DNA of 64,000 bases, taken from Cupriavidus pauculus (GTDB lineage: Bacteria; Pseudomonadota; Gammaproteobacteria; Burkholderiales; Burkholderiaceae). The first letter of the stretch is position 1. Each line of letters begins with the position of its first letter. Location of the stretch: assembly GCF_003854935.1 (NCBI RefSeq), contig NZ_CP033969.1, positions 3,472,001-3,536,000 of the forward strand, written 5' to 3'. The notes under the pieces were generated by a model that ran no database searches, was not told the origin of the DNA, and worked only from the letters and a program-made list of their open reading frames with translations. The position numbers and the translations under genes were made by a program. This document shows positions 3,127-19,238 of the stretch, piece after piece.

Positions 3127-3250
3127 CTCCCCTCTCCCGCCTGCGGGAGAGGGGTTGGGGGTGAGGGCCAGCGGTGCAAACTGCCACCCGTCGGCAAGCA
3201 GAACCTCAACGCCCCCACCCCCGGCCCCTCTCCCGCACGCGGGGGAGTGG
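3127..3250. repeat. paired interspersed palindromic repeats
   Basis: The first unit has a perfect 12-bp stem (3129-3140 with 3143-3154, arms CCCCTCTCCCGC/GCGGGAGAGGGG, 2-nt loop) and a G-rich tail TTGGGGGTGAGGGC. A degenerate unit in the opposite orientation lies at about 3212-3249. The two face each other, as in REP/BIME-like elements, between convergent genes (aminotransferase and GST). They could end transcription from either side, but there is no T-run. Confidence 0.85.
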
Positions 3251-7622: not shown

Positions 7623-7999
7623 GGCTGAGGTGCGGCCTGACCAGCTCCCCTCTCCCGCCTGCGGGAGAGGGGTTGGGGGTGAGGGCCAAGCGGGTCGCCT
7701 GCGAAGAACGCTTGTCAATGCCCGACGGCCGGCCCTCATCCCCGGCCCCTACACCAGCGGCGGAAGAAGGCAGCAAACCCAAGCTCAAGTCATCAGACAA
7801 CTGAGCACGCCGGTCCACATGGCTCCGTCTGCGCCGAGACATTGAACGCCCCACCCCAGCACCCGCCCCCACCCTAATGTCCCAACATTCATCCCCTCCC
7901 TTCTACGTGTTTTCCCGATAGACCCGACCGCGATCCCAGCCTACACTCCCATCCATCGTTGTACGACGACTGATGATAAGTGTTGACTGGAGACACAGC
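7623..7999. other. non-coding gap between phosphotransferase and Bug-receptor genes
   Basis: This 377-bp stretch holds a copy of the interspersed palindrome near its left end and a degenerate opposite-facing copy about 60 bp further. The remainder (about 7760-7999) has no convincing reading frame or RNA gene. The last 100 bp presumably contain the promoter of the receptor gene; no clear -35/-10 pair was recognised. Confidence 0.6.
7645..7690. repeat. interspersed palindromic repeat, copy identical to the one at 3127
   Basis: The stem pairs 7647-7658 with 7661-7672 and is followed by the same G-rich tail. The unit matches the copy beginning at 3127 over about 45 nt without a difference. A decayed inverse partner (GGCCCTCATCCCCGGCCCCT) lies at 7731-7750. 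Confidence 0.85.
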
Positions 8000-17345: not shown

Positions 17346-18038
17346 CTACGAGCGGAACAGCCGGGAATACTGGGTCTCGTGCCGGGCCGACAGCAGCCCG
17401 AGCATGGGCGAGAACGTGGAGAGCCGCGGCGGCTCGGCATCGGCGCGGCGTACGGCTTCGTCGACGGTCGCCTGCACGGCGCCATGCAGCCCAAGCAGGA
17501 TGCGTTGTCCGGCCACCTGCCCCAGCGGCACGGCCTTGATCGCGGCGGCCACCTGGTTCTCGGCCCAGTTGAACGCATAGGCCGCCAGGCCGTCGCGCCC
17601 GTCGATGCCCAGCGCCACGCAGGCCGCCGTGAACGCCGTGGGCAGGCACAGCGGCGACAGGTCGCGCAGCACGCCGCGCATGGCGTCGTCGCCCCAGCCC
17701 ATCTGCGCGACGAGCTTCGCCAGCGACCATCCCATCTGCTCGGTCTCCAGCCGCAGCTCGGCCGTCTCGCGCGTGGCATGGAACCAGCCGTTCCAGTGCG
17801 CCACCGCGTCGTGATCGCCAGCCCGCCACGCGCGATGCAGCAGCAGCCAGACCGGCGCCTCGCACTGGGCCTGCACGTGCGACAGGTTGTCGTGAATCCA
17901 CCGCTCCGCCGTGCCGGCATCGGCCACCAGCCCGCAGTCGATGGCCGCCTCCAGCCCCTGCGAATAGCTGAACCCGCCAATCGGCAGCGCCGGCGAGGCC
18001 AGGTGCAGCAGGGAGATGAGCTGTGGGAGGGTTGTCAT
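17346..18038 (-). CDS. ureF: urease accessory protein UreF
   Basis: This 230-residue helical protein bridges UreD and UreG in the urease activation complex and gates GTP hydrolysis. Conserved segments are [18 protein letters not shown] near residues 13-30, [18 protein letters not shown] and the C-terminal [19 protein letters not shown]. Its ATG overlaps the stop codon of the upstream DUF559 gene by 4 nt (ATGA), which implies translational coupling to a gene that is not normally part of urease clusters. The length is normal and no residues appear disrupted. Confidence 0.96.
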
Positions 18039-18646
18039 GGGGCGCCCTGGATGCGCCGGCCCTGTCCGCCGGCGGGACGGGGGACCGCATGATCGGTGAC
18101 CGGGGACGGCAGTTCTACGAAACCGCGTGCCAGCACGGCCAGGCGGATCGATTCCAGCACGCCGTCGATCTCGTGGTCGATCTGGTTGTTCCAGAAGCGC
18201 AGGACCGTGTAGCCCTGCGCCTGCAGCCAGCGGTCGCGGGCCATGTCTGCCAGCGTGCCGTGCTGGCTGCCGTCGGCTTCGATGATGAGGTGGTACTGCA
18301 TGCAGACGAAGTCCGCGACGTAGGGTCCCAGTGGCACCTGCCGCTTGAACTTCAGCCCGAGAAACCGGTGAGCCCGGAGGAAGTACCAGAGGCGTTCTTC
18401 GGCATTGGTCTGGCGGGTGCGGAGGGACTTTGCGAACGCGTAGCGACTCAGGCGCCGGCCCTCTCCCCCGGCCCCTCTCCCGCCAGCGGGAGAGGGGAGC
18501 AAACCAGCAGCCTCGCCAGCGCTGGCGTCGGCAAGCAAACCGGCAGCCTTGCCGGTGCTGGCAGGGGCGTTATCAGTTCCATTGGTGGTCTCCCCTCTTC
18601 CGCTTGCGGGAGAGGGGTTGGGGGAGAGGGCCAGCCGTTCAACCAT
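18035..18646 (-). CDS. DUF559 nuclease-like protein embedded in the urease operon
   Basis: This 203-residue frame starts 13 bp after the ureE stop and overlaps ureF by 4 nt. The conserved DUF559 domain covers about residues 68-178: [17 protein letters not shown] (E84), [16 protein letters not shown] (D112), [10 protein letters not shown] (E123, D125, Q128, H129), and [12 protein letters not shown]. This matches the Vsr/PD-(D/E)XK-like endonuclease fold suggested for the family; no activity is established. The first 65 residues are coded largely by interspersed palindromes ([26 protein letters not shown]) and are probably not a folded domain, so the true start may be internal. DUF559 is not a known urease factor. 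Insertion together with its repeats is the likely origin. Confidence 0.8.
18472..18497. repeat. interspersed palindromic repeat inside the DUF559 gene
   Basis: An 11-bp perfect stem pairs 18472-18482 with 18487-18497 around a CCAG loop. It belongs to the same family as the copies at 3129 and 7647 and codes for part of the low-complexity N-terminal region of the DUF559 protein, immediately before its conserved domain. Confidence 0.85.
18592..18634. repeat. interspersed palindromic repeat at the start of the DUF559 gene
   Basis: A 12-bp stem with one G-T pair joins 18592-18603 to 18606-18617, followed by a G-rich tail TTGGGGGAGAGGGCC. With the copy at 18472 it brackets about 95 bp in opposite tail orientation, the paired arrangement also seen at 3127-3250. 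Confidence 0.85.
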
Positions 18647-18659
18647 TGATCACATCCCG

Positions 18660-19238
18660 TCAATGCTCATGCCCACAGTGTCCCCCATGCCCATGCGAAT
18701 GCCCATGCCCATGCCCATGCCCATGGTGATCGTGGAACACCGCCTGCGCCGTGGCGTAGTCTTCGGCGAACGTGGCGTCGTGGCCATGTTTGTGGCCGCC
18801 GCCGTAGGCGCCGGCTTCGGGTTCGAAGGGGGCGCTGGCGCGGGATGCCTGGACGCCCAGGCGGGCCAGCATGTCGGCCAGCACGGGGTCGTATTCCAGC
18901 CGCAGGTAGTCGCGGCCCACTTCCACGGGGGTGTGGCGGTTGCCCAGGTGGTAGGCTGCGCGCATCAGGGCCTGGGGATCGGTGGCGCTGACTTCGAGCA
19001 CCGATTCCGCAGCGGCCTGGACTTCCACGAAGGTGCCGTCCTCGGCCACCAGCAGGTCGCCGCCGCGCAGCACGGTGCCGCGCGGCAGGAACAGCGCGGC
19101 CTCGGTGCCGTTATCGAGCACCGCGCGCAGGCGGCTCTTGCTGCGGTCGCCGAATGGCAGCACCAGCTTGGGGGCGCGGCGCACCAGTACCGGTGCGATG
19201 CCATGCGGCGCGGGCAGGACTTTGTCGATCTTGATCAC
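18660..19238 (-). CDS. ureE: urease nickel metallochaperone UreE with His-rich tail
   Basis: This 192-residue protein binds nickel and passes it to UreG and urease. The N-terminal half (MIKIDKVLP to about residue 70) is the peptide-binding domain; [14 protein letters not shown] contains the conserved metal-site His region, followed by [13 protein letters not shown]. The C-terminal tail from about residue 146 is very rich in His and Gly (KHGHD, then alternating HGHG to HCGHEH), of the type that stores several nickel ions. The tail DNA is an ATGCCC-like hexamer tandem. The gene starts 3 bp after the ureC stop. Confidence 0.96.
18686..18726. repeat. hexanucleotide tandem repeat coding the UreE His/Gly tail
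   Basis: About four exact ATGCCC units (18699-18722) plus degenerate flanking units code for alternating Gly-His on the minus strand. The unit is a multiple of three, so gain or loss would change tail length without a frameshift. Confidence 0.8.

Follow-up and report, generated by a model that had tools for sequence, protein, structure and literature searches.

The window analysed here, a stretch of 64,000 nucleotides from Cupriavidus pauculus (contig NZ_CP033969.1, positions 3,472,001 to 3,536,000), carries a gene for a nuclease-like DUF559 protein between the urease accessory genes ureE and ureF. What is a gene of this family doing among urease genes, and what are the palindromes that make up much of its beginning? 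Comparison with DUF559 genes of other genomes showed that these genes are associated with palindromic repeats, and we see a somewhat better than even chance that DUF559 serves a dispersed palindrome family as its enzyme partner, in a mode like that of the RAYT proteins and with an unrelated catalytic domain. DUF559 would then recognise, cleave and disseminate the repeat.

The DUF559 gene and the palindromes it carries

The open reading frame encodes 203 residues (18035..18646, minus strand), of which residues 70-169 (18140..18439, minus strand) match the Pfam DUF559 profile (PF04480) with 129.7-131.3 bits (E 5e-38; 129.7 bits against a curated cut-off of 20.6). Two palindromes (18474-18495 and 18594-18615) form one 53-nt inverted pair, 85% complementary, that spans 18454..18635 and encodes most of the first 65 residues. 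This stretch is a REPIN-like doublet with the order foot-hairpin-spacer-hairpin-foot, and as single-stranded DNA it folds 8 standard deviations better than its shuffles (z -8.1). In PMC4666352 the BoxC / TM_ECO intrastrand triplex motif is given as 5'-CCCTCNCCC-N3-6-GGGNGAGGG-N3-GGGNGAGGG with at most one mismatch. We relaxed this pattern, CCCTCNCCC-loop-GGGNGAGGG-linker-GGGNGAGGG, by allowing 2-4 nt in the linker and 3 substitutions, and with it found a gene-facing motif within the open reading frame (hairpin plus G-rich foot, linker of 4 nt; 18459..18496, minus strand) and the outer inverted motif of the same doublet (18593..18628, plus strand). Judged by its sequence, the window palindrome with its G-rich foot fits the published motif with a slightly wider linker.

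The palindrome is not peculiar to the gene. Searching the 6.18 Mb genome for CCTCTCCCGCNNGCGGGAGAGG with up to 2 mismatches gave 215 copies and none for the reversed control pattern; within the window the same palindrome occurs as a dispersed doublet at 3130..3249 and as a further copy at 7635..7685. Among the 87 copies listed, 30 gaps between neighbours were 260 bp or less and 12 of those measured 90-99 bp, which indicates that doublets are present among the dispersed copies. All 60 Cupriavidus genomes searched contained the palindrome, between 1 and 277 times, against at most 1 match for the reversed control. The palindromic repeats that the original prediction had placed at the N-terminus are therefore present, as members of a genome-wide dispersed family and not as a property of this gene. 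According to PMC4666352, BoxC palindromes were described in the 1990s, the triplex motif has been studied by circular dichroism, nuclear magnetic resonance and footprinting, and no function could be assigned to its 3610 copies in 262 proteobacterial genomes. The text of that paper contains no word beginning with 'nuclease' or 'endonuclease', and among open-licence papers we found none linking DUF559 with these palindromes; the link between DUF559 and the BoxC/triplex motif comes from the present analysis.

The protein itself is predicted to be a PD-(D/E)XK nuclease of the Vsr/homing-endonuclease-like type. A model of the domain built on a 63-sequence alignment (mean predicted local distance difference test score 88.8) matched PDB entries 3hrl, 3r3p and 1cw0, which supports the Vsr-like fold suggested earlier from conserved acids; low-scoring sequence matches to the PDB (E above 0.1) were regarded as chance. 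The likely active site consists of E83, D112, D125, H129 and D134, with a spacing of 29-13-4-5 equal to that of the Caulobacter VsrA residues E73-D102-D115-H119-D124 in the portion of PMC12907096 that describes them. Of the acids named at the outset, D112, E123 and D125 held up, with H129 and D134 filling out the Vsr-like set alongside them. E84 did not: this position, likewise a glutamate in the window protein, varies among relatives, and the conserved, nearly invariant glutamate is E83 (alignment position 14).

DUF559 genes and palindromes in other genomes

Within Cupriavidus, PF04480 matched in 27 of the 60 genomes, and 19 contained a full gene (more than 100 bits). Every one of the 19 full genes has a palindrome within 85 bp of the domain, and 11 have one on both sides within 150 bp. 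In contrast, none of 10 fetched loci out of the 26 weak PF04480 matches had a palindrome in about 3.2 kb. The median palindrome count is 112 where a full gene is present and 75 where it is not (Mann-Whitney p 0.005), and no full gene is found in the 15 Cupriavidus genomes with fewer than 36 copies.

To look beyond Cupriavidus we used 80 named loci picked by protein-domain similarity alone, the best 80 of at least 573; those assigned outside Proteobacteria come from draft metagenome contigs and may be mislabelled. Across these loci a de novo inverted-repeat test took over from the search with the window palindrome. The arm score was the best inverted match between 200 bp on each side of the gene, with a threshold of 20, and 76 loci were scored after exclusion of 4 with too little flank. 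Inverted arms reached the threshold at 51 of the 76 loci. Among 2280 control positions within these loci, 2 did so; the controls are mostly coding DNA and may understate chance in intergenic DNA. In 28 cases the true partner arm outscored every other right flank among the 76. A triplex motif, with up to 4 substitutions allowed, lay within 250 bp at 63/76 loci, where about 1.7 were expected from 46 motifs in 1.06 Mb, the remainder of the same loci. Arm similarity climbed with DUF559 identity over the 76 loci (rho 0.33; 0/2000 permutations).

Two further sets gave the same picture. In 30 loci that were the best-scoring DUF559 matches among Pseudomonadota genomes, inverted arms were found at 13 (controls 4/621). 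In 40 loci hand-picked from the same Pseudomonadota list (19 from four multi-copy genomes, 1 from genome G599 and 20 others), 22 had inverted arms, against 0/920 controls, and 28 had the motif, against 1.3 expected. The two sides of a gene in this set matched each other with a median score of 27.5 (40 loci), and paralogues of one genome with a median of 15.5 (36 pairs), although the latter value is the best of four comparisons. Chance palindromes are ruled out by this excess of inverted arms at DUF559 loci together with the 215 copies against none reversed.

Several individual loci are of note. Four genomes have 5 to 8 DUF559 genes each (L251-L269); out of 19 genes examined there, 12 lie within inverted arms of their own that score at least 20 and differ from gene to gene. 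In Legionella anisa (L088:9800-10500) the gene is enclosed by very long inverted arms (score 125), with the usual G/C-rich ends and an A/T-rich inner loop, and a gene from another Pseudomonadota family (genome G475, L202:1300-2010) has long A/T-containing arms of score 98.5 that are not of the triplex type. A 1.3 Mb genome (70% complete) from a different genus of the window's family has the Cupriavidus-type palindrome on both sides of its DUF559 gene (L062:517-952).

In the family of genome G553, which we take to be Enterobacteriaceae, 16 of 17 DUF559 genes (the set includes one partial gene and one interrupted by a stop) have a motif with a gene-facing foot 8-54 bp past the domain. The E. coli member is ycjD, which is found where the eefRABCD operon is absent and is conserved in phylogroups A, B1 and C, according to the part of PMC12817139 that treats it. 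A ycjD match was obtained in 3,365 of 5,426 E. coli genomes. The triplex motifs of E. coli number 29 in strain 55989 and 1 in IHE3034 according to PMC4666352.

Palindrome number also follows the gene. Among 398 Pseudomonadota genomes, DUF559 (E up to 1e-15) was present in 108, namely in 39 of the 40 genomes with at least 10 copies of the window palindrome (up to 3 mismatches) and in 69 of the 358 others (Fisher 7e-24; this test and the two that follow ignore relatedness). With Cupriavidus removed the proportions were 36/37 and 69/358 (3e-22). The 40 palindrome-rich genomes span 13 families, and the reversed control never exceeds 9 copies, a value reached in two genomes, which leaves the threshold of 10 above it. 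For 149 Enterobacteriaceae genomes, where the exact triplex pattern (loop 2-7) is present in 25, DUF559 occurred in 12/15 with at least 10 exact motifs and in 5/134 of the rest (1.6e-11).

Finally, the arm borne by the gene tends to be the one that is dispersed. We searched 14 genomes with a Mesorhizobium arm and a Bradyrhizobium arm. Two genomes have a fetched gene with the Mesorhizobium arm, and these contained 94 and 161 copies of it; Rhizobium straminoryzae had 19 and Hoeflea 1, and the remaining ten genomes had none. Three genomes have a fetched gene with the Bradyrhizobium arm, in one case with a longer loop, and these contained 112, 44 and 45 copies; there were 65 in Rhodopseudomonas faecalis, a single copy in each of two further genomes, and none in the remaining eight. 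The arm of the resident gene thus matched a dispersed family in 5/5 genomes, and high counts were seen in 2/23 unmatched pairs.

The ureE-ureF junction

In the window the ATG of the DUF559 gene, at 18646, lies 13 nt beyond the TGA (18660-18662) of ureE (18660..19238, minus strand; UreE profile match), and its own TGA overlaps the start of ureF (17346..18038, minus strand; UreF profile match) by the 4 nt ATGA (18035..18038, minus strand), as originally read from the sequence. We compared 60 junctions, from 59 of the 60 Cupriavidus genomes (one had no UreF match) and from genome G186. DUF559 was present at 21 (one split), palindromes only at 13, and neither was detected at 26. The 19 full genes, the split copy (genome G053) and the further copy (G186) all lie between ureE and ureF. 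An insertion peculiar to the window genome is rejected by this occupation of the same site.

Presence of DUF559 required 17 changes on the ureF tree, compared with a shuffled mean of 17.6, and the DUF559 and ureF trees broadly agree (rho 0.74, 0/2000) with three supported conflicts. DUF559 diverges faster than ureF (tree distance 0.94 against 0.51; synonymous divergence pS 0.72 against 0.44). Alignments were readable for 3/8 pairs of junctions (L179/L047, L158/L038 and L151/L001). When L179 is compared with L047, a single hairpin at the flanking hairpins replaces gene and feet, and L158 against L038 is similar. Early presence with many collapse losses, or loss with homing-like re-entry, both fit these data, a single-gene ureF tree being too weak to part many losses from repeated gain.

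The gene is not a decaying passenger, since it is under purifying selection: the median ratio of nonsynonymous to synonymous substitution rates was 0.14, computed on 84 of 190 pairs after exclusion of the 106 that were saturated. Its contact with ureF is also conserved. Out of 20 Cupriavidus copies, 16 overlap ureF by 4 nt and 2 by 1 nt; the remaining 2 are separated from it by 13 and 404 nt. The extension after the domain varies from 3 to 108 residues, yet the frame meets the ureF start in 18/20. At one chance in three per copy the probability of this is 2e-7, on an assumption of independence that the copies do not satisfy. That the frame is kept despite the variable extension suggests that coupling to ureF is probably selected, and supports the translational coupling first proposed from the overlap in the window. 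Coupling to ureF is probably real, to judge from these junctions, and secondary. Of note, UreE ends in a histidine-rich tail whose length differs strongly between Cupriavidus species through short codon repeats (L152-L189).

Proposed mechanism, rival explanations and known systems

According to the mechanism that we favour, the typical unit would consist of an arm, the DUF559 gene and an inverted arm, each arm being a G/C-rich hairpin with a short gene-facing foot that can supply the third strand of a triplex by folding back. The nuclease would recognise the hairpin/foot DNA of its own unit and cut at the arm, as Vsr and I-Bth0305I-type enzymes cut DNA, and repair or replication would then copy arms and arm doublets to new sites. 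Doublets would be the non-autonomous progeny of the arm-gene-arm unit. In Cupriavidus this unit sits at ureE-ureF with its frame kept touching ureF, so that losing the frame would probably harm UreF supply.

Several findings weigh against this mechanism. Two arms were found at no more than 51/76, 13/30 and 22/40 loci and at 11/19 Cupriavidus genes, which is not the constant flanking described for RAYTs, and no inverted pair of score 20 was present at 25/76, 17/30 and 18/40 loci. The window copy itself shows clear arms on one side only; on its ureF side, 18051..18090 is a possible decayed arm, with a local similarity of 14.0 to one relative's arm (shuffled maximum 12.0) and no excess for four other relatives. 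In Enterobacteriaceae the arm lies nearly always on the 3' side alone, and a full motif is found no closer than about 170 bp downstream of K-12 ycjD (L220:2700-2920), whose stop carries a degraded one. Since arms differ between lineages, the window's own palindrome lies near just 19 of the 80 named loci; it lies near 2/8 DUF559 loci in other genera of the window's family. The copy-number tests take no account of relatedness, and 69 of the 108 Pseudomonadota with DUF559 stay below 10 copies of the window palindrome. All 60 Cupriavidus genomes bear the palindrome and only 19 a full gene, one of those without (G043) having 262 copies; G333, G477, G573 and G735 are similar repeat-rich exceptions. 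The match between gene and repeat is not strict, as R. straminoryzae (19 Mesorhizobium-type copies) and R. faecalis (65 Bradyrhizobium-type copies) have fetched genes with neither arm. At ureE-ureF, DUF559 is inherited roughly along with ureF, and one clear absence looks like a collapse between palindromes that ordinary recombination could produce. As a separate observation, genome G333 has 46 palindromes and no DUF559 match at E 1e-15, which a loss or a different partner enzyme might explain.

The rival that comes closest is a role in genome care: DUF559 would resolve the hairpins and triplexes of repeats during replication or recombination and be kept where repeats are many, its arms serving as an autoregulatory site. 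The modelled Vsr-like repair fold, the link between palindrome number and DUF559, the rarity of DUF559 on plasmids and phages, and the genomic instability to which the relevant part of PMC4666352 ties the triplex motif would all suit such an enzyme. By itself, however, care of the genome fails to explain why genes, even paralogues, lie inside their own matched arms (27.5 against 15.5), and repeats persist in many genomes without DUF559. We regard it as unlikely, though as the alternative to be taken most seriously. An ordinary plasmid- or phage-borne element is unlikely too, given the same rarity.

It is improbable that another enzyme or recombination spreads the palindromes and that DUF559 is frequent cargo caught between two of them. 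The L179/L047 junctions are consistent with exchange at palindromes, those of L158/L038 similarly, and DUF559 presence shows no phylogenetic signal on the ureF tree. Such a passenger would, however, have to be the same gene family across many lineages with differing palindromes, whereas genome-wide copy number follows DUF559, arms grow more alike as the genes do and were of the dispersed type in all five matched genomes, and the gene is under purifying selection. For the carriage by repeats that the original prediction had offered as one option, the occurrence of DUF559 next to such palindromes at unrelated loci in many lineages likewise leaves no support as the main account.

Less probable still is a Vsr-type mismatch repair enzyme acting on T:G pairs at methylated sites, as proposed for Caulobacter VsrA, with the repeats as unrelated neighbours. 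Family and active-site spacing are those of VsrA as set out in part of PMC12907096, and the modelled fold matches Vsr. This explanation accounts for neither the arms nor the copy-number link, and the role of VsrA is itself drawn from genetics and a predicted structure in that part of the paper. An accessory role in which DUF559 or its translation tunes UreF supply, the other option raised at first, agrees with the frame contact in 18/20 copies and is nevertheless very improbable as the main account, with 39/60 junctions lacking the gene, relatives at other loci in other genera and a palindrome number that tracks DUF559 genome-wide.

Taken together, our results suggest that the DUF559 nuclease spreads or manages a common orphan bacterial repeat. 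A wider proposal, to which we would give a little less than an even chance, is that DUF559-family Vsr/homing-like nucleases form a second, transposase-free class of bacterial repeat spreaders, which would recognise hairpin/triplex DNA, copy it chromosome-wide and lie behind both the E. coli BoxC/triplex motif and several palindrome families specific to lineages within the alpha-, beta- and gammaproteobacteria. If DUF559 is the agent of the BoxC palindromes, an uncharacterised gene family with members in E. coli, Caulobacter and Cupriavidus would gain a readily testable substrate, the repeat families of many genomes a cause and the triplex fold a biological reader, and the REP-RAYT way of life would have arisen twice, with unrelated nucleases.

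Among known nucleases, VsrA of Caulobacter and E. coli Vsr are alike to the window protein in fold and active-site spacing. VsrA holds a DUF559 domain, and palindromes are absent from its account in the pertinent part of PMC12907096, whereas the window gene adjoins them. Caulobacter also has Vsr-like genes designated CCNA_02930 and CCNA_02876. The homing endonuclease I-Bth0305I (PDB 3r3p) is 22% identical to the window protein, whose gene is instead flanked by palindromes with no intron or intein seen, and NGO0050 (PDB 3hrl) is titled 'putative endonuclease-like protein' in the entry heading. As for the repeats, the inverted pairs of the BoxC / PIT / TM_ECO motif reported in portions of PMC4666352 are likewise found in the window arms, and the Mesorhizobium and Bradyrhizobium arms resemble that motif in layout only.

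The closest comparison is with REP/REPIN-RAYT systems. RAYTs are 'always' flanked by two REPs, and their hallmarks are inverted flanking palindromes, co-evolution, fast divergence and a correlation of gene presence with repeat number, as listed in the abstract of PMC2817692. An enzyme gene between inverted palindromes is likewise the trend in DUF559, with looser two-sided flanking and often one arm or none found, and palindromes are here too dispersed as singles and inverted doublets. Gene presence tracks repeat number in tests that ignore relatedness, gene and palindrome co-vary in 5/5 genomes with two exceptions among the unmatched, and the gene evolves faster than its neighbours in comparison with ureF only. 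REPs carry a GTAG/CGTC tag, according to the title of PMC3733652, in place of which DUF559 palindromes have a triplex-forming foot. RAYTs are tyrosine transposases of the IS200/IS605 type, and DUF559 is not a RAYT because its enzyme is, by prediction, a Vsr-like PD-(D/E)XK nuclease. The hallmarks of RAYTs are thus seen as trends, and by analogy DUF559 probably works with its palindromes as RAYTs work with REPs.
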